From Halobaculum sp. MBLA0147 (GTDB lineage: Archaea > Halobacteriota > Halobacteria > Halobacteriales > Haloferacaceae), in assembly GCF_041361345.1 (NCBI RefSeq), contig NZ_JBGKAD010000002.1, positions 186,001 to 250,000 on the forward strand: DNA of 64,000 nt, read 5' to 3'. The notes beneath the pieces were generated by a model. It was not told the DNA's origin, did not search any database, and saw only the letters and a program-made list of their open reading frames with translations. The translations under genes and the position numbers were made by a program. Shown piece by piece: positions 4,055 through 33,340 of the stretch. How positions within the stretch are numbered: the first letter of the stretch is position 1; every line of letters starts with the position of its first letter.

Positions 4055-7000
4055 ATGACCTCGCTGTCAGCGCCGGACCGCGTCATTGGGATTGGCCACG
4101 GTGGTATCGAGCTTGTCAAGACGCTTTTCGAGCAGGAGTGGTACCTTGATGCCATCCTGGCGCCGCGTCATGGTGACCGGAACGAGGTGACGGTCCAGTT
4201 CATCGATACGGCGACTGCGGAGGCAAACGAGTTGACGACCTGGTGTAGCGAGCGGGAGGCGGCCATCGCCGAGCGGCAGGCCGAGTTGCGAGCGCCGGGG
4301 GAGGGCGATCTCGGTGACATCAGTTTCGAGACGACGATTGTCACCGAGAACATCCCGCAGACGGATGCGGTGGACCTGTGCGGGCCTGCCGTCGTTGAGG
4401 ATGTTGCTCGGGACCGTGGGTTTGACCCAGATGATTGGTGGATTGACCAGACTGATGTCTCGGAGACGCTGGACTTCGCGCAGGGGGTCTACCGGCGGCG
4501 CGGGCTGGCGAAAGCGACGCTGTTCAAAGCGCTGACTGAGGACCGCGACCTCATCAGCGATGTGGATATGATTATGCAGGGCGAGGTGGCGATTTGTGTC
4601 GGGCTGGGTGGCGGCACCGGGTCTGGGCTCGCGCTCGATGTCGCGCGGCTGATTCAGGAGAATGCGCCGTCCTCGGATGTCACGCTGTTCGGCGTGTTGC
4701 CGAGTGAGTACGAGCATGAGGATGACCGCGTCGGGGCGAACGCCTTCGCTGCGCTCTCCGAGTTGGAGTACGCGCAGGCCCACCAGGATGCGGGACCGCT
4801 CTTCCGTGATGTCGTCATCACGCCGATCGACGCGACTGGCTACGAGGGGAAGGGCGGTGATACGTTTGGGACGGCCACGTCGCTCGCGGAGTTCGATGAG
4901 GCGTTCAGTTCCGTGTTCGTCTCCTACTATCACAACCAGGAGGAGAATGCGTTCGATAAGACGCCGTCGCACGGTCCGTTCACCGTCGCGGTGCCCCAGA
5001 TTGCCCGGTATACGGTTGGCAATATTGACGATGCGTCGGCTGCTGTCGAGGAGGCGATCGACGCGCTTGAGTCGGAGTGTTCGGCGCTGGCTGCCCTGTA
5101 TGAGACGACAGCGGAGTTCCTGAGCAATTGCGGGGCGAGTCAGCGCCCCGCCGAGCTGACGAAGCAGGACCGTCGGAGTCTCCGGAATCGGCTGGAGTGG
5201 ATTGCTGACTTCGTCGACCAGGAGTTGTTCGACGAGTTGGAGTTCACGACGGCCACGCAGTTCCAGCGGAAGCTCGCCGATGCGCGTGACGAGGGTGGTG
5301 ATGATATCGTGGACGTGATCCAGACGCTGCAGTACCTCACCAAGACGCTGGCGTCTGACCAGACTGAGTTCGTGGATGAAACGGACCGGCGGCTGGCGGA
5401 GGTCCTCCAGCAGGCTGTGAAGACGCTGCAGACGCGGTCGGAAGTGCTCCAGCGGGTGGCCGATATCGAGAACAGCCGGATGGCCAAGCGGGTTCGGGAG
5501 ACGCTCCAGTTGCGCGATACCGACACTGACGATGTGTCGCTGATTCGCTCGACGCTCCAGACTAATCTCGACCACACGACGGAGACGGTCCGTGAGTTGG
5601 AAACCACGGTCGAGGACAAGGAGACGGCGTACGAGACGGCGATGCGTGAGCACGAGGAGACCGTCGCTGACCGGATGGACACGTGGCGCGTGGAGACGCA
5701 GAGCGCTCGTGACACGGTGCTGGCGCTTGACCCGACCCACGCTCGCCGGCAGGCGGTGCAGCTGAAGGACGCCCTGGTCGAGTTCATCACCGACCTCGAT
5801 GCCGTGACGGACCCCACGGAGGCGACGGAGGTGCCGACTGACGAGTTGGAGGCGGCTGCCCGGGAGTTGGCGACGACTCTCCAGCAGGGAGCTGAGACCT
5901 GGGAGACTGAGCAGCCGGCTTGGTGGGGGAACATCGCGGGTGCTGCGGACCAGCTCCGGCAGGCCCGCTGTGTCTTCCTCAAAGGGCAGGCTGACCCTGG
6001 CATGCGGAGTCACCTGCCGTGGATGACGGCGACTGAGCAGGAGCTCGCTCAGCATCACAAGCGTGCTGAGGAGCTTGCGACGTCGCTCCGGCGCGATGGC
6101 GTGTTTGACGTGCAGGTCACGGACGACACGTTCAGTGCGACGGTCACTGTGGACCCGGCTGTGGTCGAGACCGAGGCTCGCGAGCGGGTGCAGGCCGCGG
6201 TCGACCAGGTGCTGGCGGTGACGGGTGACCTTGCGACGATGGACCAGGCGACTGAGCGCGACCTGGAGACGCAGTTGCTGGAGGGTAACCTGGAGCGTGT
6301 TGAAGAGCGGGTGGCTGGCTGCATCGACACGAGTGTCGATGGTCCGACGGGTCTCAAGACGGACCTCGCTGACACGAAAGCGGACCTGGAGGCGGCTATC
6401 GATAAGCAGGAGCGTCTGCAGGCGTTGGACTCGTACTTCGATACGGTCGTGTCTGCTGGCTACCTCGATACGGTCGCGAACGCGCGGGCGACCCGTCAGG
6501 CGGCGATGGATGAGATTGACGAGACGCAGTATGTTGGCGACGGTGCGGACGAGTACACGTACATCAAGCGGGTTCACCCGGAGGACCCGCTGCAGCACGT
6601 GAACACGGCCGACTCGTTGGCGGCGTCGAGCCTCCTTGACGAGACCGAGCGGCAGCGCTTTGCTCGGGAGGTCGAGCAGTTGGCCAAGACGTCGCTGGAG
6701 TCGGAGTACAGCGGCCTCCGGGAGCGTCGGTTGACGCATGATGCGACGCGGTACCGCGATCTCAAGGTGAATGTCGGCCTCGTCAGCGCGGCGCTCGACC
6801 GGTTTGAGGGCGCGGACTTCGGGCTCCAGCAGATGATGACGAACGCCTTCGGCCTGCAAAACTCGGCGTCCGATTTCGGGACGCTGACTGCCGATGTCGG
6901 TGGGCCGTGGGATATGGGCGTTGCCGTCTTCATCGATGGGGTGTTCCTCGACAACCTGCGGAACGCCACCGAGTATAGGGAGTCGTACCAGGCGCGTGCC

Positions 7001-7297
7001 CGCGACGGGTCGAGCAGCATTCACCTGCACCACACCCTGGGGCTCGAGCAGGGCTGGCTCGTCCGGCGTGCGGACATGGTCAACGTCCGGAGTAGTGACC
7101 TCGCGGTCTACTTCGCGGCCGACCCGTTGACGACGATTCGCGAGGAGTACATTGAGCAGTGTCCCGTCGCTGCCACGCGGCAGGCGACCACCGCCACCGC
7201 CGCCGCGAACAGTGCTGATGACAGCGGGCAGGATGCCGGCAAGGAGACGGATACCAGTTTGGCCACGAGGTCTGATGACGTGGAGGTGACCGAGTAG
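4055..7297 (+). CDS. Large tubulin/FtsZ-superfamily GTPase-like protein (Tubulin_2/FtsZl type)
   Basis: A 1080-residue protein. The N-terminus has a nucleotide-binding opening VIGIGHGGIELV (10-21), and the tubulin signature GGGTGSG lies at 185-191, followed by a helix and by VTLFGVLPSEYE (209-220), as in the tubulin/FtsZ GTPase core. Long helical, Glu/Arg-rich segments, probably coiled coil, occupy about 430-570, and the remaining C-terminal 500 residues match no fold I recognise. It is far longer than FtsZ (about 370). Makarova and Koonin (2010) described FtsZ-like families proposed to act in membrane remodelling together with a distinct GTPase. The adjacent membrane GTPase here fits that proposal. 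Start chosen at the ATG at 4055. Long minus ORFs in this stretch are shadows. Confidence 0.8.
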   Translation: MTSLSAPDRVIGIGHGGIELVKTLFEQEWYLDAILAPRHGDRNEVTVQFIDTATAEANELTTWCSEREAAIAERQAELRAPGEGDLGDISFETTIVTENIPQTDAVDLCGPAVVEDVARDRGFDPDDWWIDQTDVSETLDFAQGVYRRRGLAKATLFKALTEDRDLISDVDMIMQGEVAICVGLGGGTGSGLALDVARLIQENAPSSDVTLFGVLPSEYEHEDDRVGANAFAALSELEYAQAHQDAGPLFRDVVITPIDATGYEGKGGDTFGTATSLAEFDEAFSSVFVSYYHNQEENAFDKTPSHGPFTVAVPQIARYTVGNIDDASAAVEEAIDALESECSALAALYETTAEFLSNCGASQRPAELTKQDRRSLRNRLEWIADFVDQELFDELEFTTATQFQRKLADARDEGGDDIVDVIQTLQYLTKTLASDQTEFVDETDRRLAEVLQQAVKTLQTRSEVLQRVADIENSRMAKRVRETLQLRDTDTDDVSLIRSTLQTNLDHTTETVRELETTVEDKETAYETAMREHEETVADRMDTWRVETQSARDTVLALDPTHARRQAVQLKDALVEFITDLDAVTDPTEATEVPTDELEAAARELATTLQQGAETWETEQPAWWGNIAGAADQLRQARCVFLKGQADPGMRSHLPWMTATEQELAQHHKRAEELATSLRRDGVFDVQVTDDTFSATVTVDPAVVETEARERVQAAVDQVLAVTGDLATMDQATERDLETQLLEGNLERVEERVAGCIDTSVDGPTGLKTDLADTKADLEAAIDKQERLQALDSYFDTVVSAGYLDTVANARATRQAAMDEIDETQYVGDGADEYTYIKRVHPEDPLQHVNTADSLAASSLLDETERQRFAREVEQLAKTSLESEYSGLRERRLTHDATRYRDLKVNVGLVSAALDRFEGADFGLQQMMTNAFGLQNSASDFGTLTADVGGPWDMGVAVFIDGVFLDNLRNATEYRESYQARARDGSSSIHLHHTLGLEQGWLVRRADMVNVRSSDLAVYFAADPLTTIREEYIEQCPVAATRQATTATAAANSADDSGQDAGKETDTSLATRSDDVEVTE

Positions 7298-8943: not shown

Positions 8944-9786
8944 ATGAACGTCACACTCTACGAGACGACTGGCAGCCGTATCACAACGACCGGCGATACT
9001 GCTGGACGGGGGCACGAGGCGCCGCCGGTGAGAGACTGGTTCCACGAGGACGTGTGTGCCGTTTTCCGTGCCGATGGCACGACGGCTATCGTCCTTCGAG
9101 GGCAGCGGCACGGTGCTGGTCGGATCGACCAGTTCTATGCCGTTTTGCACCCTGAGGCTGACGAGTTGCCGTTGAGCGAGCCTACGACAGTGCGCGCGGA
9201 GCAGCACTCCACGGCCCGGTCTACTCACGCGGGCAGTCGTCAGACCACGGCAGGCGGTCCAGAGTGGCTTCGTGCCACAATCCGTGAGGTGGCGGATATC
9301 GATATCGTCGCGCACGGGGAGCGGTTCGCCGAAGTCCACCGCAAGGTCTTCGAGAGTGGTGCCTGGCCTGGTGACGAGGCTATGCTCCAAGTCTTGGGGA
9401 CGGAACTTGAGCCTGAGGCCCCGGTCGTGTGGACAACGGGTCGGGTCAGCACGGCTGTCATCGCCGGACGGATTGCCAGCGAGCAGTTGTCAACAGGCGA
9501 AGTCCTGGTGACTGCCGGTGAGCAAGATCTCGGATGGCAGTCGACGCCGACGGTTGTCATCCGTGTGGATAGTGCCAGCCCGTCGACAGCGGTGCGCCCG
9601 ACTGACGCGACTAAAGCTGCCATTGACGAGGCACGGCTTACGGCTTTCCAGCAGGCTGTGGCCCATGAGGCCGATAAGCTGGTTGAGACGACCAAGTTCG
9701 ATCGAGCGCGGATCTGGCGTGCATTGCTTTCCGCATGGCCTGAGCGTCCTGCAGTCACGCAGCGTCTCATCAGTCGGCTCCGCTAG
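8944..9786 (+). CDS. Hypothetical protein, last gene of the AAA/tubulin/GTPase operon
   Basis: A 280-residue protein, start ATG at 8944 (MNVTLYETTG), 43 bp downstream of the membrane GTPase. No known domain was recognised and there are no membrane segments. The middle part (about 110-215) alternates hydrophobic strands and helices (EVADIDIVAHGERFAEV, PVVWTTGRVSTAVIAGRI) that look like a soluble alpha/beta fold. The C-terminus is helical and Arg-rich. Close spacing and matching codon use place it in the same transcription unit, so it is probably a partner of the tubulin/GTPase machinery. A longer ORF beginning inside the preceding gene is less likely to be the true start. Confidence 0.65.
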   Translation: MNVTLYETTGSRITTTGDTAGRGHEAPPVRDWFHEDVCAVFRADGTTAIVLRGQRHGAGRIDQFYAVLHPEADELPLSEPTTVRAEQHSTARSTHAGSRQTTAGGPEWLRATIREVADIDIVAHGERFAEVHRKVFESGAWPGDEAMLQVLGTELEPEAPVVWTTGRVSTAVIAGRIASEQLSTGEVLVTAGEQDLGWQSTPTVVIRVDSASPSTAVRPTDATKAAIDEARLTAFQQAVAHEADKLVETTKFDRARIWRALLSAWPERPAVTQRLISRLR

Positions 9787-9948
9787 TGATCACACATCGA
9801 AGGCCAGGACCGGCTCAGCTGTGGCATCCAAGACGAGCTTACTGAGCAGGAGGAGTCAACATTCGGATACCCTGTCTAAAGGCATCTATTCTCATTCAGT
9901 AGTCGATACAGCACTTAGAGCGTGTACTCATGCGCTGAATCACCCGAA

Positions 9949-9972
9949 CCCGGAAACCCGGAAACCCGGAAA
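9949..9972. repeat. Short tandem repeat upstream of the Orc1/Cdc6-like gene
   Basis: Three perfect copies of cccggaaa, preceded by a partial copy, lie 44-67 bp before the Orc1/Cdc6-like ATG. It does not match the haloarchaeal ORB consensus that I know. An origin or autoregulatory role is only a possibility. Confidence 0.4.
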
Positions 9973-10015
9973 CACCCCCATCGAACCTTTCAGTCTGGCA
10001 CCGAACCACTCGGCC

Positions 10016-11040
10016 ATGATCACGAACGCGAGCGTCCTGCAGGAGGGGTTCGTCCCCAACGACTCCATCCACCGGAACCGCGAGGTGAACGCCCTCTCGC
10101 GCTCGCTGGACCCACTCACCCGCGGCCGCGCCACCGACCCGGTCCTCCTGACCGGCCCGTCGGGTGTGGGGAAGACGACCTTTGCGCGCTTCGCCGTTGA
10201 CCAACTCCAAGCGACCGTCCCCGAGGTACGAGCGGTCCACGTCAACTGCTGGGAGAGTCACACACGTCGGGCCGCCCTGTTCGACGCCCTCGAGTCACTC
10301 CAACTGGCGACGGACCTCCACCGCACCTCGACGAGTCACGACGAACTCCTCGACCGCCTCGCCGACGTCGACGCGCCGGTGGTGCTCATCCTCGACGAGG
10401 TCGATCAGTTGGACGACGCGAGTGTCGTCTACGACTGCTACGCCACGGCGGGCGTGACCACGATCCTGATCACGAACGACGAAGGCGAACTGCTGCACGG
10501 GATGGACAGCCGCGTGCGGTCCCGGCTGCAAACGGCCGATCACATCCACTTCGACGCCTACACCTCCCGGCAACTCGCAGACATCCTCCAGGCACGTGTC
10601 GACCACGGGCTCGTCGCCGACGCGATCTCGGAAGCGCAACTCCTGGAGATCAGCGACGCCGCCGCTGGTGACGCCCGCGTCGCCCTCTCGATCCTCCGCA
10701 CAGCCGCCCAGACGGCCGCGTACGAGGAGCGAGCCACGATCACCGACGGCGACATCGACGACGCCATCCCACGCGGAAACAGGCTGTGCGCGCCCAGACA
10801 CTCGACACGCTCCGAGAACCACAACGGGAGTTGTTCCGCCACCTCCAGGAGGCAGGCGAGATCGCCCCCGGCGAGTTGTACGAGGAGTTCGCCGCCACAC
10901 GCTCAGACCCGCCCACCAAGCGGACCGTCCGGTCGTGGCTCCAGAAACTCGCCCACTACAACCTCGTCGAGCGATCGGGGAACGGCCCGACGCGAACGTA
11001 CGCGCCAGTGCAGGAAGCGACGCACGTTCCGTCACCGTGA
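10016..11040 (+). pseudogene. Orc1/Cdc6-like AAA+ ATPase, frameshifted near 10778
   Basis: The first frame (10016 to about 10780) gives an AAA+ ATPase: Walker A GPSGVGKT (47-54), Walker B VVLILDEVDQL with DE at 127-128, sensor 1 ITND, then the helical lid ending DGDIDDAIPRG. The winged-helix C-terminus (LDTLREPQRELFRHL through VERSGNGPTRTYAP) is in the +1-shifted frame, open at 10786-11040. Adding one A to the short A run at 10777-10779 joins both parts (AIPRGKQAVRAQTLDTL), giving about 341 residues, normal for short haloarchaeal Orc1/Cdc6 proteins. It is therefore a recently inactivated gene or a sequencing deletion. Its codon use is more G+C-rich than the operon before it, which fits a separate origin. 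Replication initiation function is inferred from the family. Confidence 0.8.
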
Positions 11041-11265
11041 CACGCTGTAGGCTCACGAGCACCCTGCCCGAATACACGCACTGCTCGCCGACTATCAGGT
11101 TAGACTGTACTAACCAACAGCGACACCCAGTCAGACGCTTGTGTTGGTTAGCTTTTCGTACTCACCTTTCGTCACAGTATCGTATAGTTCCATTCATAAA
11201 TTGGTGCTACACCATGTCTGACGGATCGCTAATAGTAAGTACTAGAGCAACAAGTATCTAGCAGT

Positions 11266-20986: not shown

Positions 20987-22080
20987 TACCCGCTGCCAGT
21001 GTCCGACTCGTGTCAACGACATCTATATTGAGGTGGTCAGTCCCGGGGACTGGAGTGCGTGAACCCATGAACCGACTGACTGTCGGTCAGTCAAGGCTCG
21101 CCGTCGCGCAGGTATGCAATTCAGACGAGAACACCACCGTTCGAACCGCTCTACCACTGGCCATGAGAGGGGTCATTGAGGGTAGCTACTGTCAGTACCA
21201 CGGGTGAAGGATCCAGCCCGTTGACTCAGTGCTTCGAAATCGGTGGGGGTGTTACTAACCAACACCGTAGAGGATAGCGAAACAGGGGTGAGTAGCTACA
21301 TGTCTGGTACGCTCCATCTGTCAGCTAGTGTGAGTGGCCTGAGACGGCGTGAGCGATCGCGTAGTCCGTTGAGCCATTCACTGGGATTGTGCCCTCAACG
21401 AGCAGGGACTGGCTGTACACAGGAATTGAGAGGGGCGCAGTGCGCAGTGGCTCGGTCAGTGGAACGGAACTGGTGCCCACCAGTTGAGCGTTATTGTGAC
21501 GACTCAACGCACGCAGCAGCTGTGAGTGTGATGCTTGATCACCAAGCGCTCAAGTAATGCAGTCACCTAGTGTAGTCACCGGGTGTATTCCACGTACCAG
21601 ACTATCGTGTGCCCACACGGTACTGGTGTGGTCCTTCCCCGAGCCTTGCACCCGGTTGCCGATGGCCTGGTGAGTGCTGGCTGTTGGTACCCCTGTCCGG
21701 ACAAACTGCGCTGAGCGCGAGTGCGTTGCGTTGCCAGACGAGATGTGAGCGTGTCGACGCGGTATGTGGTGTCGAGCCATGCAAGTGTACGTGGGGCACG
21801 CCGTCGTGTCCCCCTGACGACACGGCCGTGTCCGCGGCCGGCAGCCTGGCCACTCGGACAGGCCAGCAACCGCGGCATCCACTCCTTCGTGTACGAGCTC
21901 CCGTGGGGTGTCCGTGTACGAGAGTGTGGTGACCCGACCGGGGCTGTCGGCGTCGCTACGGCGACGCTGCTGCACCGTCGCCACCGCCCTGTATGAGCGG
22001 CGACCGCGATGCGGTGGCGTTGAGCATTTGGCACCGAGTGTGATGCGCTCGTCTCGGGGTCCGACGACGAGCACGGGGTT
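20987..22080. other. Long gene-poor region, left part
   Basis: About 1.1 kb. Several overlapping frames on both strands reach 80-180 codons (for example minus 21550-22074 and 21576-22112), but none has a recognisable domain, a ribosome site or acidic haloarchaeal composition. It looks like decayed coding DNA. No RNA gene was seen. Confidence 0.4.
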
Positions 22081-22560
22081 GTTTCCTCAGCGACGCGACG
22101 AGCGTGTGGCAAACGGGTGCCCTCGTCGGAGACAGCAGTCGTGATCAGCGTCCCCCCTTAACGGAGGTGCAACCACGTCGTGATCAACGGGTGCCTCGGC
22201 AGAGGCAATCTCGTCGGAGACGGCAGTTGTGACCCACTGGCCCTGGTCGGAGGCTGTCTCATTAGAGTGGCGTCGCGATCAGGGTGGTGTCGGTGGTGAG
22301 TAGTCCACCGTAGTGAGCGGGTTCCTCGTCGGGGGGTGTCTCGTCAGAGTGGAGTTCGTGGTCAGCAGATACTTCGTCGAAGGCTGTCTCATCAGGTGGA
22401 GCTCGTGGTCAGCGTCGCTCGACTCCGGGGTGGTGCGTGTGTGGTGAGCGTTCCTCGTCGGAGGTGTGGTAGCCACATGTTCTGTACCTCATCGGAGGCA
22501 CTCTCGTCTCGTGTCGCCGTGCCTCGCCGGAGGCGGTAGTCCCACCCTGCGCTCGATCCA
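22080..22560 (-). pseudogene. Decayed acidic repeat-protein gene
   Basis: The plus strand shows at least six degenerate copies of a roughly 45-60-bp unit around ctcgtcggagg, gtctcatcagagtgg and cgtggtcagc. Read on the minus strand the pieces give acidic peptides such as ADHELHSDETPPDEE and TAVSDEIASAEAPVDHD, but small indels break the frame between units. It is best read as the remnant of a low-complexity acidic haloarchaeal protein; no complete frame survives. Confidence 0.45.
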
Positions 22561-22766
22561 CTATCAATTCCCCTACATGTCTGTGGGGCCCGGTTGCCCC
22601 CCGTTACGCAAATAGAGAATACCATATACCAGACGACCACCCCGAAATGCGGGGGTGCTCCAAACCCCTGCAAGAAAGGTAAGTTAAGCAGACTATATCC
22701 AGCAGAGGAGACTAGGAAAGTGACCCCTAAAGTCCTAAAACGCTGATTCTTGGTAACATTCAGGGG
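22561..22766. other. Gene-poor spacer before the iteron cluster
   Basis: No gene was seen. The base composition drops towards the iteron-like cluster that begins at 22760. Confidence 0.3.
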
Positions 22767-23004
22767 GTGTGAAGGTGCGTGTGAAGGTTTCAACCTTCAG
22801 GGGGTGTGAAGGCGCGCAGTATGGTAATTTTCGAGTTTGGATAGCACCTGTCAGCAGGGCTATATTTATATGTGCAAAAAAGTGGGGTGAACCTTCACAC
22901 CTTCATGACCAGATAGTGGGGTACTAAGCGTGAAAATCGAATATACACAATTATTTAGTTGCGACAAATGACGGCTCTTGTCAGGTGTGAAGGAGGTGTG
23001 AAGG
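22760..23004. repeat. Iteron-like gtgtgaagg repeat cluster (candidate replication or transfer origin)
   Basis: Five direct copies of gtgtgaagg (22767-22775, 22779-22787, 22804-22812, 22985-22993, 22996-23004) and one inverted copy (22892-22900) lie within 245 bp. Two copies sit in a longer direct repeat, ttcagggggtgtgaagg (22759 and 22796). Arms gaaggtt/aaccttc form a short palindrome at 22783-22798. An A+T-rich stretch (22860-22880, 22940-22960) lies inside the cluster. It follows the 3' end of the giant coupling-ATPase/primase gene. Iterons next to an A+T-rich segment are typical of plasmid origins; the function is inferred. Confidence 0.6.
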
Positions 23005-23170
23005 CCGACGCTGTATGGTTAATTCCGGGTTTATGATTTCAACTAGTCCACTGTGTATAGATATGGGCGAAAACGCTCTTCCTGGCGACGTAGACCACAT
23101 ATGCTACTCTGTAGAGTAGTCTCTTAAGTAGGGAGAGGGTCTAAAAAGAGATTACTCTGTCGTTAGTGGT

Positions 23171-26100
23171 TCAGAGCTCAATCCTTTCTCTTAGTTGTTC
23201 ACCAAGCTTGGTCAGTTGGCATGGGTACACTGCTTGCACGGATCCAGTAGAACTGTCAATCCACTTTTTGTCCTTATCAGCTTCTTCTGGGAGAAGGCTC
23301 ATAAGATTGTCATCTGATGAGAACTCCTGTTTGGAGTATGGCTCAATTTCAGTTTGTGACACGTATTCTTCAAACATCAACATAAGTGCGCGCGTCGAAA
23401 CCCTCCAATCAGGACCTACATCCGGTTCACTAGGGCTCTCTTTCACTTCTAATATGTCTTCAACAAACTTCCCCAGCGCATCTTCCTTCGACTGGAAATT
23501 TCTAGATAGAGATGGTGATAGCTTAGATCCAGGGGATGATGTTTCTGCTGATGCAGCAGATACAGACGAATTGTTGCTGGTATTACCATCAGTTTCACCA
23601 CGTTGGGCGCTCCCAGTCTCATTGTTCTGAGGTTCGTTCTGGTATCCGCTGCGGGGAGTCAACACTGGATCGATCGACTGATTCTCGCTGAAGTGTGTGA
23701 TCGCTCGGTTGTAGGCCTCATCTGAGAGACCGATGAATGAGCTGTTATCACCGTCGTCTCTCTGTACGGGCACCTTTTCGAGATCGTCAGGGCCGTCAAT
23801 GATCCCGTGGCGTTTGGCGTAGGCCGTGAGTGCTCGCGACGGGATTTTCCCTTCGTCTCGGTCCTCCGGAAGGAGGCCTTGGTGCTTCGCGTATGTCCAT
23901 ATCTGCAGGAGTTCATCAGCACTGATGTCGCGGTCAAGGTCATTAGAGGACGGCCAGCGGGCCCCGGACGCGACCAAGAGCGCGGTCGTCCCGTCGTACC
24001 ACGTTTTCGTATTGAAGTCGTAGCCTCTGACCCCAGCGTCCTTGTTAACGATCATGAAGTAGTCGTCGGAACCGCCGTGATTACCGAAGGGGTTCGGGCC
24101 ATGGTAGCCGACACTCTTCTGGCAGACATCCCTGAATTCGACATCATAGACGGCTGTCTTTTCAGTTCCAGACGCGTTGTCTAATGTATCGGCCAGCTGG
24201 TTGGGCACACTGAATCCAGGAATGGCCGCAATATCCGGCGAGGCAGCAGGGTGGTACTTCGCGTCAATCGCCGGGACCATTCCAAACCAGTCTGCTATCG
24301 GGAGGTCTTCAGGAATGTCCGCTGTTGGATTACGGGTGGGCGTCCAGTTGCCGGCCTCATCGGTCGGGGAGAGGGCGTCACCGAAGTGCCTGTCCATCCA
24401 CTGCCGTTCACGGCCTTTCGTGACCGGCTCGTCGTTGTCGTAGCCAATCTGGCTGTAGGGATCATCGTCGGGAGCGGCGTGACTCGATCCCGCTGAGGAG
24501 GGGATATGAGGCTTGTCGGCCCACCTGATTGCTGGCGAGAGGTCCTCGCGGCTGTCGATGGTGGCGTCTGTTGGCACCTCCGGTGTGGGATCTTCGAATG
24601 GCGGCTGGCCTCTGTCTGGCGCGTTTGAAGCCCCCCTCGTGTGCTGAGGCATGCACGCAGCGGTGTGACCGACATCGGTGGCCCGGGAGCTGATTTGCAT
24701 GTGCCCGTCACACGCTAGCTGAGTGATCCACGAGTCATCGGGGCCGGGATCGTATTGGTCGATGTCGTCGGTTCCAACTTCGCTGTAGACGTGGAACACC
24801 CACGGGACAGGGGGTATGAGTTCGAGCCACCCGCCCCGGAGGTAGTCGTCGAGGTCGACACCTTCGGGATCGAATCCTGGGAGGTACAGTATCCGGGCAT
24901 CAACATCGCTGCCGTTCTCAAGCTTTTCGCAGAGTGTGACTGCCCTTTTGATTCCAGCGCCGGAGCATTCGACGTTGAGTACGTCACCGATGGGGCCTTG
25001 TTGGCCGAGACTGACGTTGTGTCCCGCGTTGTGGAGTGACAGTGCGCCATCAATATCTTCACTTCCTGTACCTGCGGGGACAGGGAAGTTTAGTTTCACA
25101 CGGTAGGAGTCGGACACGAGTGCATTTGGCACGGTGACATCAGTGACGGTTTGACCTCTCTCGGGGTCCTGAGTTCCGTCAAGGCCGATAACCTGGTCAG
25201 CGAATTCCGGATCAGGGTTTGAACCTGTATTTTCGATAACTAGGTTCTCTCGTGTGATGGGACGGGCTGCGACGCGTTGCGCTTGTGCGTCTCGCTTGTA
25301 TTCTGTATCAGTTGTCGGGACATCTTGACCGTATCCTGTTGCTTCCAGAGAACTACTGAGGTTGGTCCTGAGTGTCACTTTCTCAGTGTTCTCCGCCTCA
25401 GTTGCGGCTACAGCAGTGGGGACATCGGTACCGTTGACGATGTAGACGGTCGGAATGTCGAATTCATCAATGAGTCGGGTTACTGGATCGATATATTTGT
25501 CCTTGGATTGGGTCGTCACCGGTGAGATCGCCGGAATGCCGAAGTCGTGGCAGGTGATCGCGTCTGCAATCCCCTCCGTGATAACGAGTGGTTCGCCTTC
25601 GTTGATCGAGGGAATCCCATAGATTGGCTCCTCAACGAACGTGTGGTCTGCGCTCTGGGAGAGTTTTTTATACTTCGGGCCGTCGTCTGTGTGTGGCGGC
25701 CGTCTCGTGATGAAGTATACAGGGTCTCCCTGGCTGTTGAAGTATGGAAAGACGAAGCGGTTTTTGAACGTCTTTGGGACCTTCACATCGTAATACTCAG
25801 TCAGTGAGCCGTCGTGGTCGTCAGGCATCGGATCGACCGGGTACGCAGATTCCTCTTCTGTCGTGGGGATCGAGGATGGGTCTGCTGGAATGTAGCCGAG
25901 TTCTCGGGCTGTCTCACTGGGACCGAGCTCATCAAGATCGGCGTGAGGCTTGAATAGGGAGGCAGCGAGCATCTGTTCGCGGGTGATATCTTTCTGTAGG
26001 AGGCGTTTAAGCAGCGCTTCTGAATCGTTTAGAGCATACCCGAGGTACTTTTCGTCAGCGATGTCCTCACTCCACCCGCGTGAGGTGACAGTGTAGAGCT

Positions 26101-29100
26101 GACCTTTGAGGTCGTGTTTGCGGTGGTCCGAGAGTCTGTCTGGGGAGTGGCGAGTGAGGCTGACATCCCCATTGTCGACTGTTAACTCGTACAGCGCGTC
26201 GGTGAAGTAGTCCTCAGGATGAATCGGTGGGAGCCCGCCTTCGTCGGTCGGGGGACTGAGTGTGGCGATCTCCTCAACCGTCCAGTCGCCAGGAAAAGCG
26301 TCTGGATCGTACGGGAGCGTTTGTTCCCACCGGCAGTTCGCGTCTTCGTAACCGCGTTCGCCGTTGTAGCGTCGAGCTGCTTCGAGAACTCTCCAGTGAG
26401 GGAGTTCTCCGCCGTTCTCGTCAACGATCGATTGGACGTTATCAAGCCACGTGTTTACGCTGTGCGTCGTCGCGGTGAGGAATGGACTTGCGGCCTTCGC
26501 CTGCTCAAGTGTCTGCGGGGCGAGCGCAGCCGCGCGGAAGGCCTCTGCCGCCGCCGTGAGTGCCTCCTGAACTGGAGTGCTTGGTTCGCTATCCACCTCT
26601 CCAAGGTCAGGTGTGTTGACCTTGGTGTCTGCCATGACTGCTTCGCGTACAGTGTCATAGGGCTGTTCGGTTTCAGTGTCGGTACTGTCGGATTCACCGT
26701 CTGAATCATCGTCAAGTTCGTTTTCTGCGTTCAATACCCCGGGGTTAGTCTCGGTCCCATCAGCGTCGGCTCCGGTCGTAGAGTCATCGGAAGTGTTTGT
26801 TCGGTCGTTATCGCTGCCAGCGAGTTCCGACATATGGGTGTCGACAGTGTGGTCATTGGTGTCCCCGGTGTTGGTATTATTTTTCTGTGGATTGTTGGAT
26901 TCCGAGTTGGGTCCTGGATCATCGTCGTTGTCGTCCTCCCAGTGAGCGTTCGCATGCCCTGATCCGGTTCCTAGCCCAATTGGGACCGCTCTGTACTGAC
27001 CATTGTCTTCTTCGATTGCCCCTGCGTCAACGAGTCGGGTGACTTCTGCCTTTGCTTGTTCAAAACCAGCGGATGATGTTTGCTGAGCGCTATCGAGAAG
27101 CAAGTCCCAGGTGAGTGGATCTTCTCCGATTGTGTACGGGCTATATTCCCAGATGTCGACGACACGCGGATCGTACCGTGTCCTGATTCGTTCGTACAGG
27201 TGTCGATCAGTGTCGGGCCCCGTCTCGCTCTCGGGTCGGGTCTCGACGTGCTGAATATGAGTATTGATTACACCTAGCTGGAGGAGAGATTTTGTGATAA
27301 TCTCTGTCGGGACGCCCCTAGTGACGTTCTCATCTTTCCTTCTAATTGCGACTCTGATGGCTTGCGTGAGCGCACGCTCCATCCTCGCTGCCTCCGGCGG
27401 TCCAGCGGCTTCGAAGATGGATTCCCAGTTGGCCGCTGTGAACCGGTGTTCTGGCGGGATGAGTTCACCTGGCCGGGTTTTTGGCGTGACAACTGTGAAG
27501 AACGGTGTGTCCGCCTCCACGTCAGGAAGTTGCATGATAGCACTCTCCCATGCGTCGCCTCCGATCTGCCGGAAGTAGTCCTCAGCTGTCGTTGTGAGGA
27601 GCCAGCCCGCTTCAAGCCCGATATCAATCGCGTCGTCCGCGGGGCCGTCAACAGTGATGCCGGTGTTCTGGATAATCATCCCACGAAGTTGGTTCCGCGT
27701 AACGACTTCGCCGTCTCCAAGTTTGGTATCTGGAATGTTCTGATCAACCGGTGTGTCTTCGGGACCTGTGAGTTCAGGTTCAACCAGTTGTAACCAGAAG
27801 TCGTAGGTACTTGCCTGTTCGGCGGTCGTTGCGGCTTGCTTGACGACGTCTGCCTTCGTGGGGTCGAAGCGAGTGTAGGTTGTCGTCTGTGCGGGTGTGT
27901 ATCGATCAAGATGTTTCATTGGTCGGGATGGTGTGTCGACAGTGCTGGATGCAGACTGCTCAGATGCGGTATCGTCGCCGAGATACTCTCCGTCCTGCTC
28001 GGCGAGTTCGTCGCTCGGGTGGCTACTGACAGGCTCAAGTGCTGTGTCTCGACTAGCAAGTGTTTCCATCCGGTGGACCCCCTCACGGTACTCGGTCAGA
28101 AGCTTGATATGCTGTTCACCTGCTTTTGGGTTGCCTGTAATGTCGTCGACGATCTGTTTATCCTCCCACTCATCGGGGGAGAAAAGCCACTCATAGTCAC
28201 CGCGATTATACATCAGTGGAAGCTTGGAGGCACGAATCCACACCTCTTCGTCAGCATCTGCATCTGCTGGGTACTGGGGCGGCGTGTAATGTGCAAGACG
28301 GCCACTGTGGCCCGCCTCAGTCTTATCACCTCTATTTTCGTTTATGGGGTTATCATCGGGCGAGCTACCATCGTCTGCACTTTGCTGTGCGTCTGCTTGG
28401 CGTGTCACTGCAGGCGCTCTATGGAGGACCTGATAGTCGAACTGCGTCGGGTCGTCAATGTTGAATTCGACACGCGGAACAAGTGGTTGTGGAACAATTA
28501 GATACTCTCGCTCAAGTGTGGACTTGTTATCAACCGTCTCTTCACCACTAGAGTGATGAACAGTATAACTACCATCTGAATTCTCTTCAGCGTATATTTT
28601 AAATTCAGTGCAATCAGCGTTAGCTACCGCTTCAGGACTCAGTGACGCCCACTCTGTCGCGTCTGGTCCTCGGTCATCGTAAAGTCGAATCCTGTCGTCG
28701 TCTGGACGCGATACCCACCACGCCTGGTCGCGTCCGCTTCCAGACCGCTCAATCAGCGGGTAGAAGGTGGCGTTTGAGTTGATATTAAGTGGGAGTGGGT
28801 TGCGCTTATTATACAAGATATCGGCTTCCCGGTTTAATGGGTGAGACTCCGACATCCCCGGTGGTGTGAGTGTTTGCTCCTTCCGTAGTACTGGCTCTTG
28901 AAATACATCAGTAAGCACGCTTGGTGCGTATCCTATGTCTCGGTCTCTACCATCGTTGATATCATTCACGTGTGGGGTCACGTAGACGGGGACTCGGCCA
29001 GCATCATCCGCTCGTGATGCTTTCATGATAACCATACCAGGCTTCTTAAACGTGCTCGATTCAGATTCGATCCGGAGCGGTCGGCCGTCAGATAAACGAG

Positions 29101-32100
29101 ACACTACCTCGTTTTTCTCTATGAATGCATCGAGCCGCTCGCTGAGGACAGAGATCGGAGCGCTATCACGATCAACTGGGATGAGACCTTCCCCGTCAGG
29201 AGCCTCTTGTTGTGCTTGTTGCTGTTTGACAGTTGGAACATAGCCGGTTTTTGCGAGGAAAGCAAAGATCTCACGGATCCCATACTTGTGAGAGTCCTTT
29301 TGTCGGTTAGTCGGATCGCCACTCTGAAGCACGTGCTGTATCCCGGCTTCAGTGATACTCACCTCAATCGATGGGTGGGCAAGATGCTCGAGTGGAACCT
29401 CTTTGTCTTCGTGCTGCTCAGTCGCCGTGTTTGTTGCTCGCTCTGCGTCTCGTGGGTACACACAGTCGACAAACGCTGTCGGGATGTACACGCCATCTGT
29501 GAGATCTTCGAAGTCGGTGTTGTATCGCTGGTTGAACTGCGGAATTACTTCCTTGAGTGGGAGCCGTCCCGTTCCGGTGTCATTCCGGATTTCGCTTTCC
29601 CAGATTGCTTCGAGCATACAGTGCCGGGCGAGGCCGTCGCGCTCGGCACGATCAAGGATCAACTCAAGTTCTGAGAGAGCATCCTGGTTTGGCTCTTTCC
29701 CGGTTTCATCAAGTCGCTCTCGGAGGCGTTCTGTCACCTCGTTGCGGGTCCAGCGTGGTGGCGTCGGCGGGAGTGATTGAACTGTCGTGGCCTTCCCAGG
29801 GACGATCCCAGCGTCCAAGCCGTCGTCAATCAGCGGCTTGTGTTTGAACAAGTACTGCGGGAGCCCACTGAGGTCACCTCCCTCTACCGTCTCATCGAAC
29901 TGCTTGGCGATTCGCTCGGCGTCTTCGTCGTTTTCCAACTGGAACGCTGCCTGATACTTGGTATTCCCGAAAATCTGATCCAAGACGTCGGCGTCGATCT
30001 GTGACGGGTTCTGCGAGGCGACATACAGCCCGAGGTTGGCCGATCGGGCGAGAGCGAGGATTTCCGGTAGTCGGAAATTTTTGTTGATGATCTCGTGTAG
30101 CTCGTCGATGAACGCGAAAAACGGGGGCAGGTCTTTGCCCTCCTCTTGCCGGGACCGCACTGCAGACCAGATCCGGCGGATGACAGCCACCGCAATCAAG
30201 CGCTTTGAGGATCTTTTTTGAACGGAGGGAGAAACGACGATGATTTTCCCCTCGTCGACAGCCTTGTCGAAGTCGACGGTTGACTCGCGGTTGGCGATGA
30301 TACTCCGAGTGATGGGATTTTCAGCCCACTGCTTGATCCGGCGAATCAACGGCTCGATTAACTCATGGTCCATCTGCCGGATGGTCTCGGCGAACTCAGA
30401 CTCAATCTCTAGGCCTTCGTCTTTCACCGAGTCGACGAACGTGTCCAGTGCCTCGGGGTCGTTGAGGATCTTGAACATATCCACCAGCGTGTAGTTGCGC
30501 CGAGAGCGGATCATCGCGTTCGCCATCGTTTGAGCAATTCCATCCATTCGAGCGCCGAACACGTCGTCGCCTTTCAGTGCGCCGACGAGGTCTTCGATCT
30601 GTGACTCAATGGCGGTGTTCTTCTCGATCTCGGACGGCTTGTTCGGCTCTTCGAGGAAGTTGAGAGCCACTGATTTGCTGAACCGCTTGTCGGCCGGGTC
30701 GATGTAAATCACGTCGTCCCAGCGGTCTTCGGGAACACGGCGCAGTACTTCGGTGACGAAGTCGCCCTTCGGATCGATCAAGAGCGTCCCATGACCTTTC
30801 TCGATTACCTGGTGCGCTTTGTTGATGAACGATGTCGTCTTCCCGGCTCCGGAGGATCCGAATTCCCAGCCGTGGACGTTCCACGCCGCTTTGGGAATCC
30901 CGACTTCGCGATAGCCAGCACTCCGTCCCTGGGCGAGTCCCATGAAAATGGGCTGATCGGGATGTTCGCTCTGGCTCTGGATGAGTAGTTCGTCGAGGTC
31001 TCGACCGAGGAGCGGCCCCTCTTCTTCGGTGTGGACGACAGTCTCGATCTCGCCTCGCCAGCCGGACTTTGGTGACGTGTACAGTTCGCGCTTGGTGTCT
31101 GTGATAGTGAGGTCAAGCGGTGTATCGTAGGATGCTCCGCTGGGAGCTTCGACAGGCCCCGGCTCAGAGGGTCTGATTTCGACATCGTCTTCACTGCTGT
31201 CTGCGTAGGTTGTGTCAGTTGAGCCGGGCTCCGAGTCGTCAGCGGTGGAAGTCCGTTCGGGAAGGTTTTCTGAGTGACTTGCTGCGGATGCAGCTGCTGT
31301 GGTATCAGTGGTACTGCTGGGTGTCGGATCAGTGGTCGACTGTGCGTGCGTCTCTGTGGTGGCCGTGTCCTCAATTGGCGATTGCCCGCTGTCAGCTGAT
31401 CGATGAGCGGATACGGTGGAGTTCGGCGTGGAGTTGTCGGGTGAGGGTGCTTGTTGCTGGGTTTGGTCGGCAGGCGACGTCTCGGCTTCCTCCGACACCG
31501 TCTCTCCCTCTGCTGTGGGTTCTTCAGTATGTATGTCTTTTTCGGGTGTTGGGTGCGGGGTGGGAGATCCTTCTGTGTGGGTTGTGACGAGACAGTCCGG
31601 GCGTCGCCCTTCGTCGTACAGTGCAGTGTCAAGATCATCGGGCGTTTCAATCTCGTTTTGAATTGCCCACGTGACCTTGTCTCCATGACCTGTGTACACG
31701 CCTGCTATCGCGTCGATGCTGAGTCCAGCGTTGTGGTATTTCTCGTAGTGTGTGTCGTACCCGCTGGTCGTGAGGATGTTCCGAAGCAGTTCCACTTCGT
31801 CGTCATCGAGTTGACGGATCGAGGCGAAGTCTTCCGGGTCATCGAATCCGTGAGTATCGTGGAGGATTTCTCCGTCACCCGTTTCTGCCGACCCCGACGA
31901 CAGGCGTGTGTGCGCGATTGAGCTGGCGGACTGGGCGAGCCGGGTGACACGCTTGAGTGGCTGCGTGATCAGTGCCTTTGTTTGAGTGAATGGGTGCCGG
32001 TTCCACGTCTGCTTGTAACGGTGGTAGCGCCAGCGGAGACTCCGGTTATCCTCACCTGGCTCGACGTGTTTGCCTTGGAATTTATCTGGAATTGGTGGGG

Positions 32101-33340
32101 CTGTGGTGGTGATCGAGGTGTCGGTGGTGATTTTCTCAGTGATGTCGGTTTCGCCGGTGGCTTCAGTGAACGATTCTTCGCCAGCGTGATCGCCTTCTGT
32201 ACGACCGATCCCACCACCACCGCTGTTCGTCCAAGAGATAGCCGGTGAGACTACTGTCTTGTTTGGCGGGTGGACGATCCCAGCGAGTTCTGTGGCGGTG
32301 AGAGTGACTTCTCGGTCGACGAGATCACGCCGACCGGCCCGGGTGAGCGCGTCCTCCATGTTCACCGCGTGGATGGGAAGTGCTTTGAAGCGCTGTTTGT
32401 ACTTGGGCGTCTGGAACCGTCGTTCAAACGTCTGGCCGATGTCGCTGGCTGTTCTTGAAGCCGACTGGGCGCGTGGGGAGAAGACAAAGTACCGGATGTT
32501 GACATCGAAGGCCGTCTGCTCATCTAGGCCTTTCAGATAGTCAGAGTAGTCCTGCTCCCACTCTTTCGGATCGCGGTTGCGGTAGGAGAATGGACCGGTC
32601 TTCTCAAACTGCTGCATGTCATAGTATTTTCCGATGGTTTCGGCCGGCTCTTCGTAGAAGCGGCCTTTGGTCCAGTTATTCGCGGCGGGCCGCATCACGA
32701 CTTGGACGAGGACTTTTTCATCGGTGCGTGCAGCAATTGACCCCGTAAGTGATTTTAGTGGGTCTGGGTCCCGGTCTGGCTTGTAATTAGCCTCTTCATC
32801 AATCTCGTATGTCTCAATTGGTCGGTAGCGTGGGTTTTTGAGTTCAAAAGTCCCTCCACTGACATAGTAGTGGCTACCAACCTCAGGCCAGACTCGCTCT
32901 CGTGTCGTGAGTTCTGAGTCGGGATAGTAATCAGAGACAAGCTCGTTAAGTGCCGCATAAGATCGGTCGTTCGGCACTATATAGTTCAAATCCAGGTATT
33001 CACCATCCCACCAGAACTCGTATGAGACGGGGTCTGGTGCACCTATAATCTCCCCACTCAACAGGTGTTGAGTTTTTGAATATTCCCATATATAAGTGTG
33101 AAGTCCTGAGACAAACTCTTCCCCGACGAGGAGTCCGTCACCTTCCCGATATGGCCGAAGCCCAAGCACTGCTGAGTCTTTATGAACTGATAGAGCCTCT
33201 TGTAACGCAGTGCGAAGTTCCCTATTGAAGTGAACTGGCTCGTACGGAACCTGCATCTTATATTTCTGAATGATAGTTTCTATGATACTACTAACTGCTC
33301 CTGAGGGACTGGTCAGTTGTGAGCTGTTTGTTCCGGTCAT
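23171..33340 (-). CDS. Giant fusion: conjugative coupling ATPase (VirD4/TraG-HerA-like) plus Toprim/primase-like region
   Basis: A single uninterrupted 3389-residue frame. Residues 1-570 are an N-terminal region of the kind found in haloarchaeal conjugation ATPases. A Ser/Thr/Asp/Glu linker spans about 585-740. The FtsK/HerA-type ATPase has Walker A GSSGAGKT (828-835), LLIDPKGDF, Walker B FFAFIDELHEI (D1079, E1080) and ARSANLGLYVASQNP, as in type IV coupling proteins. The central 1250-2170 region has winged-helix-like and Trp-rich segments with further acidic linkers. Near 2480-2680 a primase/helicase-like part contains FVFPYFNSQGDPVYFITRRP, then Toprim motifs VITEGIADA (E2589) and YIVNGTD (about 2634-2639). 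The last 700 residues are unknown. It would pump DNA to a recipient and possibly prime it. A TATA-like element (ttaaga, minus) lies about 20 bases upstream. Confidence 0.78.
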   Translation of the reverse strand: MTGTNSSQLTSPSGAVSSIIETIIQKYKMQVPYEPVHFNRELRTALQEALSVHKDSAVLGLRPYREGDGLLVGEEFVSGLHTYIWEYSKTQHLLSGEIIGAPDPVSYEFWWDGEYLDLNYIVPNDRSYAALNELVSDYYPDSELTTRERVWPEVGSHYYVSGGTFELKNPRYRPIETYEIDEEANYKPDRDPDPLKSLTGSIAARTDEKVLVQVVMRPAANNWTKGRFYEEPAETIGKYYDMQQFEKTGPFSYRNRDPKEWEQDYSDYLKGLDEQTAFDVNIRYFVFSPRAQSASRTASDIGQTFERRFQTPKYKQRFKALPIHAVNMEDALTRAGRRDLVDREVTLTATELAGIVHPPNKTVVSPAISWTNSGGGGIGRTEGDHAGEESFTEATGETDITEKITTDTSITTTAPPIPDKFQGKHVEPGEDNRSLRWRYHRYKQTWNRHPFTQTKALITQPLKRVTRLAQSASSIAHTRLSSGSAETGDGEILHDTHGFDDPEDFASIRQLDDDEVELLRNILTTSGYDTHYEKYHNAGLSIDAIAGVYTGHGDKVTWAIQNEIETPDDLDTALYDEGRRPDCLVTTHTEGSPTPHPTPEKDIHTEEPTAEGETVSEEAETSPADQTQQQAPSPDNSTPNSTVSAHRSADSGQSPIEDTATTETHAQSTTDPTPSSTTDTTAAASAASHSENLPERTSTADDSEPGSTDTTYADSSEDDVEIRPSEPGPVEAPSGASYDTPLDLTITDTKRELYTSPKSGWRGEIETVVHTEEEGPLLGRDLDELLIQSQSEHPDQPIFMGLAQGRSAGYREVGIPKAAWNVHGWEFGSSGAGKTTSFINKAHQVIEKGHGTLLIDPKGDFVTEVLRRVPEDRWDDVIYIDPADKRFSKSVALNFLEEPNKPSEIEKNTAIESQIEDLVGALKGDDVFGARMDGIAQTMANAMIRSRRNYTLVDMFKILNDPEALDTFVDSVKDEGLEIESEFAETIRQMDHELIEPLIRRIKQWAENPITRSIIANRESTVDFDKAVDEGKIIVVSPSVQKRSSKRLIAVAVIRRIWSAVRSRQEEGKDLPPFFAFIDELHEIINKNFRLPEILALARSANLGLYVASQNPSQIDADVLDQIFGNTKYQAAFQLENDEDAERIAKQFDETVEGGDLSGLPQYLFKHKPLIDDGLDAGIVPGKATTVQSLPPTPPRWTRNEVTERLRERLDETGKEPNQDALSELELILDRAERDGLARHCMLEAIWESEIRNDTGTGRLPLKEVIPQFNQRYNTDFEDLTDGVYIPTAFVDCVYPRDAERATNTATEQHEDKEVPLEHLAHPSIEVSITEAGIQHVLQSGDPTNRQKDSHKYGIREIFAFLAKTGYVPTVKQQQAQQEAPDGEGLIPVDRDSAPISVLSERLDAFIEKNEVVSRLSDGRPLRIESESSTFKKPGMVIMKASRADDAGRVPVYVTPHVNDINDGRDRDIGYAPSVLTDVFQEPVLRKEQTLTPPGMSESHPLNREADILYNKRNPLPLNINSNATFYPLIERSGSGRDQAWWVSRPDDDRIRLYDDRGPDATEWASLSPEAVANADCTEFKIYAEENSDGSYTVHHSSGEETVDNKSTLEREYLIVPQPLVPRVEFNIDDPTQFDYQVLHRAPAVTRQADAQQSADDGSSPDDNPINENRGDKTEAGHSGRLAHYTPPQYPADADADEEVWIRASKLPLMYNRGDYEWLFSPDEWEDKQIVDDITGNPKAGEQHIKLLTEYREGVHRMETLASRDTALEPVSSHPSDELAEQDGEYLGDDTASEQSASSTVDTPSRPMKHLDRYTPAQTTTYTRFDPTKADVVKQAATTAEQASTYDFWLQLVEPELTGPEDTPVDQNIPDTKLGDGEVVTRNQLRGMIIQNTGITVDGPADDAIDIGLEAGWLLTTTAEDYFRQIGGDAWESAIMQLPDVEADTPFFTVVTPKTRPGELIPPEHRFTAANWESIFEAAGPPEAARMERALTQAIRVAIRRKDENVTRGVPTEIITKSLLQLGVINTHIQHVETRPESETGPDTDRHLYERIRTRYDPRVVDIWEYSPYTIGEDPLTWDLLLDSAQQTSSAGFEQAKAEVTRLVDAGAIEEDNGQYRAVPIGLGTGSGHANAHWEDDNDDDPGPNSESNNPQKNNTNTGDTNDHTVDTHMSELAGSDNDRTNTSDDSTTGADADGTETNPGVLNAENELDDDSDGESDSTDTETEQPYDTVREAVMADTKVNTPDLGEVDSEPSTPVQEALTAAAEAFRAAALAPQTLEQAKAASPFLTATTHSVNTWLDNVQSIVDENGGELPHWRVLEAARRYNGERGYEDANCRWEQTLPYDPDAFPGDWTVEEIATLSPPTDEGGLPPIHPEDYFTDALYELTVDNGDVSLTRHSPDRLSDHRKHDLKGQLYTVTSRGWSEDIADEKYLGYALNDSEALLKRLLQKDITREQMLAASLFKPHADLDELGPSETARELGYIPADPSSIPTTEEESAYPVDPMPDDHDGSLTEYYDVKVPKTFKNRFVFPYFNSQGDPVYFITRRPPHTDDGPKYKKLSQSADHTFVEEPIYGIPSINEGEPLVITEGIADAITCHDFGIPAISPVTTQSKDKYIDPVTRLIDEFDIPTVYIVNGTDVPTAVAATEAENTEKVTLRTNLSSSLEATGYGQDVPTTDTEYKRDAQAQRVAARPITRENLVIENTGSNPDPEFADQVIGLDGTQDPERGQTVTDVTVPNALVSDSYRVKLNFPVPAGTGSEDIDGALSLHNAGHNVSLGQQGPIGDVLNVECSGAGIKRAVTLCEKLENGSDVDARILYLPGFDPEGVDLDDYLRGGWLELIPPVPWVFHVYSEVGTDDIDQYDPGPDDSWITQLACDGHMQISSRATDVGHTAACMPQHTRGASNAPDRGQPPFEDPTPEVPTDATIDSREDLSPAIRWADKPHIPSSAGSSHAAPDDDPYSQIGYDNDEPVTKGRERQWMDRHFGDALSPTDEAGNWTPTRNPTADIPEDLPIADWFGMVPAIDAKYHPAASPDIAAIPGFSVPNQLADTLDNASGTEKTAVYDVEFRDVCQKSVGYHGPNPFGNHGGSDDYFMIVNKDAGVRGYDFNTKTWYDGTTALLVASGARWPSSNDLDRDISADELLQIWTYAKHQGLLPEDRDEGKIPSRALTAYAKRHGIIDGPDDLEKVPVQRDDGDNSSFIGLSDEAYNRAITHFSENQSIDPVLTPRSGYQNEPQNNETGSAQRGETDGNTSNNSSVSAASAETSSPGSKLSPSLSRNFQSKEDALGKFVEDILEVKESPSEPDVGPDWRVSTRALMLMFEEYVSQTEIEPYSKQEFSSDDNLMSLLPEEADKDKKWIDSSTGSVQAVYPCQLTKLGEQLRERIEL

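Follow-up and report, generated by a model that had tools for sequence, protein, structure and literature searches.

Movement and replication start of haloarchaeal megaplasmids are poorly known. The closest described systems fall into three groups. Coupling proteins of the VirD4/TraG/TrwB type are represented in haloarchaea by the VirB4/VirD4 region of Haloferax volcanii (PMC2841640) and by fusexin-bearing elements (PMC9259645). The conjugative Toprim primases, such as TraC of RP4 and SogL of R64, belong to elements with T4SS-like transfer, and the large polyvalent cases are almost all bacterial (PMC5512222). A text search of that survey returned no mention of VirD4/TraG. The third group reads repeats or starts replication. 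The pRN1 origin lies downstream of the gene for the Rep protein ORF904, and the P4 origin, served by the alpha protein, is made of repeats (PMC4234260). In Streptomyces, the TraB pump recognizes short plasmid repeats (clt/TRS) and works without a full T4SS (PMC4170104, PMC3218068).

The window analysed here is a stretch of 64,000 nucleotides from Halobaculum sp. MBLA0147. One uninterrupted reading frame of 3,389 codons lies on its minus strand, a strand that the first-pass annotation does not name, with an ATG at 33340 and no internal stop codon. At the same G+C, about 133 stops are expected at random in 3,389 codons, and the probability of finding none is about 1e-59. The first-pass annotation described the product as a coupling-ATPase/primase fusion with several acidic linkers. 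Both descriptions are borne out: the frame is intact, the fusion is conserved as a family with profile and fold support, and acidic linkers are present (for example, the linker listed here, with 4% K+R).

23171-33340, minus strand: gene for the 3,389-residue coupling-ATPase/primase fusion (open reading frame, full-length homologues and selection)
26531-26950, minus strand: acidic low-complexity linker, residues 2131-2270 (27% D+E)

The genome has a second giant of 3,375 residues on a different contig (C4; the window contig is C2), which is 75.8% identical to the window copy over the whole length. Collinear homologues of 3,114-3,344 residues occur in Halorubrum distributum, H. persicum, H. laminariae (two copies), Halorubrum sp. 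Atlit-26R, Haloferax elongans and Natronorubrum thiooxidans; Natronorubrum belongs to a different family, the Natrialbaceae. Giants are also present in Halobaculum marinum and Halobaculum magnesiiphilum, and the RefSeq names are 'hypothetical protein' or 'DUF87 domain-containing protein'. Between the window and C4 copies, dN/dS is 0.14 in the N-domain, 0.07 in the ATPase, 0.14 in the DnaG/Toprim core and 0.23 in a cysteine-free domain. Because intact homologues occur in other genomes and on C4, and because these values lie between 0.07 and 0.23, sequence comparison identifies the frame as one gene under purifying selection across all named domains. A chance open frame or sequencing artefact is ruled out by the stop statistics, the intact homologues and the purifying selection. 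The family is conserved on haloarchaeal plasmids and joins a conjugation-type pump to a bacterial-type primase in 3,100-3,400 residues. We hold this anatomy and family assignment with high confidence. A literature search whose reach largely excluded subscription journals found no paper describing a fusion of this kind.

The window copy lacks one catalytic Asp, and some relatives are split, frameshifted or interrupted by insertion sequences, as would be expected if the long frame were a product of misassembly or misannotation, or a decayed, functionless fusion. For the family, this reading is refuted by the purifying selection in all named domains and by at least ten copies whose frames run unbroken for more than 3,100 codons, and it is extremely improbable. 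One truncated giant, at L089:10525-11606 on a H. ezzemoulense megaplasmid, begins beside an IS630-type transposase and lacks the N-domain and the start of the ATPase; it is a natural broken copy. Among the Halorubrum giants, synonymous divergence at residues 1201-2000 is severalfold above that of the flanks between some close copies, which suggests segment exchange by recombination. The sole match in annotated phages is weak (Bacillus phage G, 24% identity). Automatic patterns found no relative in viral contigs, and such patterns were also blank on genomes, where a Toprim alignment succeeded. A viral origin of the giant was set aside on the weak phage G match and the negative pattern search.

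The N-terminal half of the giant contains the following features.

32210-33298, minus strand: N-terminal domain, residues 15-377, with homologues encoded by a stand-alone gene of about 390 aa
29621-31033, minus strand: ATPase domain assigned to the VirD4/TraG lineage by profiles and tree, residues 770-1240
30833-30862, minus strand: Walker A motif FGSSGAGKTT, residues 827-836
30089-30121, minus strand: Walker B motif FFAFIDELHEI, residues 1074-1084
28241-29620, minus strand: region of residues 1241-1700, partly common to the C-terminal part of stand-alone coupling ATPases

Coupling-ATPase profile matches span residues 811-1148. The TraG-D_C profile scores 22.9 bits, just over its cut-off of 22. 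SXT_TraD matches the giant with an E value of 6.5e-10, yet far below its cut-off. TrwB_AAD_bind, the full-length coupling-protein profile, scores 17.9 bits on the giant against a cut-off of 20.5 and 33.3 bits on a stand-alone relative, and a search of the whole genome that contains the window found no TrwB_AAD_bind match. The one close stand-alone relative tested passes both Pfam T4SS-DNA_transf and TrwB_AAD_bind. Together with the two Walker motifs, the TraG-D_C match and this relative uphold the earlier reading of a VirD4/TraG-type pump.

Relatives of the ATPase were collected from a class-wide sample of 292 genomes. A VirB4-like gene is present at 18 of the 20 stand-alone ATPase loci examined, and the N-domain gene lies directly before the ATPase gene in most of the 20. 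This separate N-domain gene, about 390 aa in length, is found between the VirB4 and VirD4 genes of haloarchaeal T4SS-like clusters. Both stand-alone clusters tested (n=2) contain TrbL/VirB6. In the ATPase tree, all 11 giants form one group (support 92/85), and the window and C4 copies form a pair on a long branch beside the remaining giants. Since the stand-alone relatives cluster with VirB4 and VirB6/TrbL, the ATPase of the giant is assigned to the VirD4/TraG lineage on sequence grounds. A simple hydropathy scan found no transmembrane-like segment in any giant or in the examined stand-alone haloarchaeal relatives.

At L045:12348-13616 and nine similar loci, a prim-pol-like gene of about 420 aa is next downstream of the coupling ATPase gene. 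The one protein scanned contains an NrS-1 HBD domain. The motifs VDLDD, SGTGYH and RFFTVTGD of the prim-pol-like proteins are presumably AEP-like (archaeo-eukaryotic primase) motifs. In these ten separate-gene clusters, the same pump is thus paired with an unrelated primase.

A primase core follows in the C-terminal half.

25241-25930, minus strand: DnaG-type catalytic core with Toprim domain, from profiles and predicted fold, residues 2471-2700
25556-25582, minus strand: Toprim Glu motif ITEGIADAI, residues 2587-2595 (Glu kept)
25424-25447, minus strand: Toprim DxD site VYIVNGTD, residues 2632-2639 (first Asp replaced by Gly)
24839-24859, minus strand: VDLDDYL motif, typical of the end of a DnaG core
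23801-24163, minus strand: cysteine-free conserved domain, residues about 3060-3180, at the position where a primase zinc-ribbon substitute would lie

The DNAG_N profile is over its cut-off at residues 2480-2558, and TIGR01391 matches residues 2480-2622. Searched against the PDB, the family profile has a DnaG core as its best match (E 7e-17). The top 19 Foldseek matches of the predicted core are all DnaG catalytic cores (probability 1.00); the mean pLDDT of the Toprim model is 54.9, which is low overall, with high confidence only in the Toprim core. Profile and predicted fold both identify the Toprim region as the core of a DnaG-type primase. A Toprim fold had been proposed near residues 2575-2660, and profile and fold searches place a Toprim/DnaG core at residues 2480-2700. 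Pfam gave no CHC2 zinc-binding domain match in the giant, and no profile supports the cysteine-free domain as a zinc-ribbon counterpart.

At the acidic pair of the DxD site, nearly all relatives have QD(S/N/A)(D/E). The C4 copy has NDTD there, and the window copy has NGTD. Among the copies compared, only the window copy lacks the first Asp. With this residue lost, priming by the window copy appears doubtful, and the surrounding core is still under purifying selection. The copies in genomes G148 and G283 lack Toprim and retain the N-domain (partial in copy G283a), the ATPase, a winged-helix-like end and the box described below. The G148 copy is nested among Toprim-bearing giants in the ATPase tree, and Toprim was therefore probably lost there. 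The priming activity claimed at first is consistent with the DnaG-type core of the family but is weakened by the damaged site in the window copy and by the relatives without Toprim.

The C-terminal half also occurs alone. A C-half-only gene of 1,216 aa is present on a 93-kb Halobaculum rubrum plasmid and is 56% identical to the matching part of the Halobaculum magnesiiphilum giant. Similar Toprim proteins are also found on small plasmids, and all 13 of the 13 plasmid records matched by the primase core are non-mobilizable by standard typing. Parts of the giant do, then, exist as separate genes elsewhere (the N-domain and ATPase genes of the VirB4/TrbL clusters and the C-half gene of the H. rubrum plasmid), but these are homologous to the giant rather than unrelated to it.

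Downstream of every giant lies a stretch without genes, which measures 2.2-2.8 kb where its end is visible.

20987-23170, no strand assigned: gene-free stretch that follows the giant; putative origin or transfer site, conserved in part at the C4 copy
22819-22832, minus strand: family-wide box GAAAATTACCATAC, exact match in the box search
23013-23026, minus strand: second, weaker box copy with 2 mismatches, from the same search
22755-23005, no strand assigned: repeat cluster CCTTCACACC, five exact copies and one near copy, direct and inverted

The box GAAAATWANCANAC is found within 1.7 kb downstream in 17 of 17 giants (allowing one mismatch), on the sense strand every time. The background at other loci is 7 mostly weak matches in 2.0 Mb of strand, two of which adjoin C-half genes. 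The box also lies behind three C-half genes (L070, L076 and L096). The window has six copies of CCTTCACAC, one of them inverted, 167-405 bp past the stop codon, and the C4 copy has eight copies of GTTGCACCC. The Halorubrum and Natronorubrum giants are followed by three repeats of about 50 bp at fixed positions of about 300, 520 and 700 bp. No exact 14-mer repeats were found behind the two Halobaculum copies or the G148 copy; imperfect copies are visible by eye in G148. This box-bearing gene-free stretch, usually with repeats, is new here and was absent from the first-pass annotation.

Other explanations of the stretch were tried. Rfam gave nothing in the window part, and other loci matched only the unrelated sot0042 element, so a known RNA family was rejected. 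A hidden gene was rejected as well, since substitutions in the Halorubrum alignment show no codon periodicity. In Halorubrum, a further non-coding segment of about 1.4 kb is conserved beyond the box. This element contains several hairpins (L089:19700-21200; also L062, L064, L065, L067, L068 and L095) and has no Rfam match in the scanned loci. Of 170 genomes of the family, 8 have a match to it, and those with known surroundings carry a giant or its remains. Columns 301-480 (about 180) give a strong conserved-fold signal (z about -5.5), and the rest gives a weak signal or none. The element is possibly a large RNA or DNA structure; a large structured RNA is not claimed because the strong signal is confined to that one part. 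BLAST found no homology between the window stretch and this element, and the two have only the box and the repeat layout in common.

The extreme C-terminus of the giant corresponds to one further feature.

23174-23548, minus strand: predicted C-terminal winged-helix region, residues 3265-3389, from the model of the H. distributum relative; exchanged between otherwise similar copies

The H. distributum C-terminus was modelled with a pLDDT of 75, and its best PDB match is the RFX5 DNA-binding domain (probability 1.00, E 0.019); the window copy is too divergent to be covered by this model. The prediction supports a winged helix at the C-terminus of the giant. Winged-helix segments had been described in the first pass. 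One at the extreme C-terminus is supported by the model of the relative, and Pfam found none between the ATPase and Toprim. RFX proteins read DNA mainly through the wing. The wing is GKQVRTWF in copies with the first repeat type (H. distributum, H. ezzemoulense and H. laminariae-A), PRKTVWF in those with the second (Atlit-26R and PV6) and GRGRxxCW/Y in those with the third (H. persicum, H. laminariae-B, H. yunnanense and Natronorubrum). Over the whole C-terminus, H. distributum is nearest to Atlit-26R (86%) and H. laminariae-A is nearest to PV6 (85%). These pairs cross repeat types, and the wing therefore follows the repeats and not overall similarity. The two H. laminariae copies differ in both wing and repeat type. 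The window and C4 copies are 23-27% identical at the C-terminus and 66-92% identical elsewhere in the named domains, and their repeats differ. From these patterns we infer a wing-repeat specificity code, and the giant probably docks on the repeats beside its own gene. Wing and repeats are close together on the DNA, so recombination could pass them on jointly and give the appearance of recognition.

The origin-like repeats and conserved box that come directly after the gene, as in pRN1, would also be expected if the giant were mainly a plasmid replication initiator in the style of P4 alpha and the pRN1 Rep. The winged helix would bind the origin repeats, the ATPase would open or move the DNA, and the primase would start the strand. 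P4 alpha likewise contains a Toprim primase together with a winged helix that binds repeats (PMC4234260). The C-half gene on the 93-kb plasmid, which keeps the box in the absence of the pump, fits replication better than transfer. Copies in the same cell diverge in C-terminus and repeats, as compatible replicons should, and VirB4 is missing in several carriers. However, the ATPase and N-domain derive from conjugation-type clusters and not from replication helicases, the Toprim-less G148 and G283 copies keep the pump, the C-terminal domain and the box, and the contigs already contain Orc1/Cdc6-type genes, three on C2 and one on C4. A predominantly replicative role is a serious possibility, at somewhat over one chance in three. 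The Orc1/Cdc6-type genes of C2 are as follows.

9518-11050 of the window, plus strand: Orc1/Cdc6-type gene
G000:C2:240522 and C2:253465: two further Orc1/Cdc6-type genes

Elsewhere in the window, positions 4055-7297 of the plus strand encode a protein of 1,080 residues whose tubulin-like domain matches Tubulin_2 and Tubulin/FtsZ; two open reading frames without a Pfam match follow.

The surroundings of the giants are not uniform. No VirB4 match was found in 5 of the 12 giant-bearing genomes, three of which are in 2-4 contigs. A VirB4-dependent channel is thus not general to the family. In the genome of the window, VirB4 lies beside the C4 copy only. At G000:C4:169331-206053 (L099, L031), the C4 giant is near genes for a PilB-like ATPase, a T2SSF membrane protein, pilin-sized proteins, a VirB4-like protein and bPH_2; by its gene content, this neighbourhood appears to be a transfer- or pilus-like cluster. 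The giant had been presented as a DNA export and conjugation module. Its pump lineage agrees with this, but conjugation itself is an extrapolation, given the carriers with no VirB4 match and the position of the window copy away from VirB4. Conjugation by the giant is plausible.

Transfer is supported by the lineage to which the pump and its partner domain belong, both of them under strong purifying selection, by the prim-pol gene beside the separate pump and by the VirB4 and pilus-type cluster on C4. The C-terminal winged helix would dock on the box and repeats that follow its own gene at a distance of 0.2-0.9 kb, as wing-repeat co-variation and conservation suggest. The soluble VirD4/TraG-type ATPase and the fused N-terminal partner domain would assemble there and drive plasmid DNA, an action that the ATPase lineage would predict. 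The DnaG-type Toprim core would then lay a primer on the exposed or transferred strand; its fold and motifs are present in the family, and such priming is doubtful in the window copy. The likeliest use would be plasmid transfer to another cell with immediate priming. Against transfer are the carriers with no VirB4 match, the lack of a transmembrane segment in the hydropathy scan, the pump-less H. rubrum C-half that keeps the box and the damaged Toprim of the window copy. An origin-binding DNA pump with an onboard primase, used for plasmid transfer and/or replication start and with transfer as the main role, is tentatively preferred at a little under an even chance. We lean only slightly towards transfer over replication initiation, which is nearly as likely. 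A stronger version, in which one protein targets itself by the wing-repeat code, exports its own plasmid and primes the new strand with no dedicated VirB4 channel or relaxase, and in which the repeats define compatibility groups, is rather unlikely.

The ATPase also resembles pumps of the HerA/FtsK class, there is a single plasmid site, and some carriers have ParA genes in the vicinity. A partition or segregation device, in which an FtsK/HerA-like pump reads the plasmid repeats and clears copies at division while the primase is a leftover of replication, would account for these features. The ParA neighbours are inconstant, however, the nearest ATPase relatives sit in T4SS-like clusters, and a leftover is at odds with a primase core under purifying selection (dN/dS 0.14). 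Partition is therefore improbable as the main role.

One chain here combines a pump, a primase and probable origin recognition, functions usually spread over separate proteins. The family supplies a defined gene, a candidate cis site and a directly testable specificity rule. If the docking is true, the giant may be a one-protein machine for plasmid movement or copy initiation.

Compared with VirD4/TraG/TrwB coupling proteins, the giant belongs to the same ATPase lineage, but it has no detected membrane anchor, is three times longer and is usually not beside VirB4. Its chain further includes a partner domain, a primase and a DNA-binding domain. Polyvalent proteins and conjugative Toprim primases are likewise large multidomain plasmid proteins with a Toprim primase (PMC5512222). 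Unlike standard DnaG, the core of the giant has no CHC2 domain. P4 alpha and ORF904 resemble the giant in combining a primase, an ATPase and a C-terminal winged helix (PMC4234260). Their ATPase is a replicative helicase (SF3), whereas that of the giant is a VirD4-type pump, and the giant has another domain order and is about three times larger. TraB of Streptomyces is an FtsK-type pump that lacks a primase; repeat binding is proven for TraB, whereas for the giant we infer it. By analogy, the giant would work like the TraB of Streptomyces combined with a conjugative primase of the TraC/Sog type. It would unite the work of a coupling protein with that of a conjugative primase and of an initiator that reads repeats.
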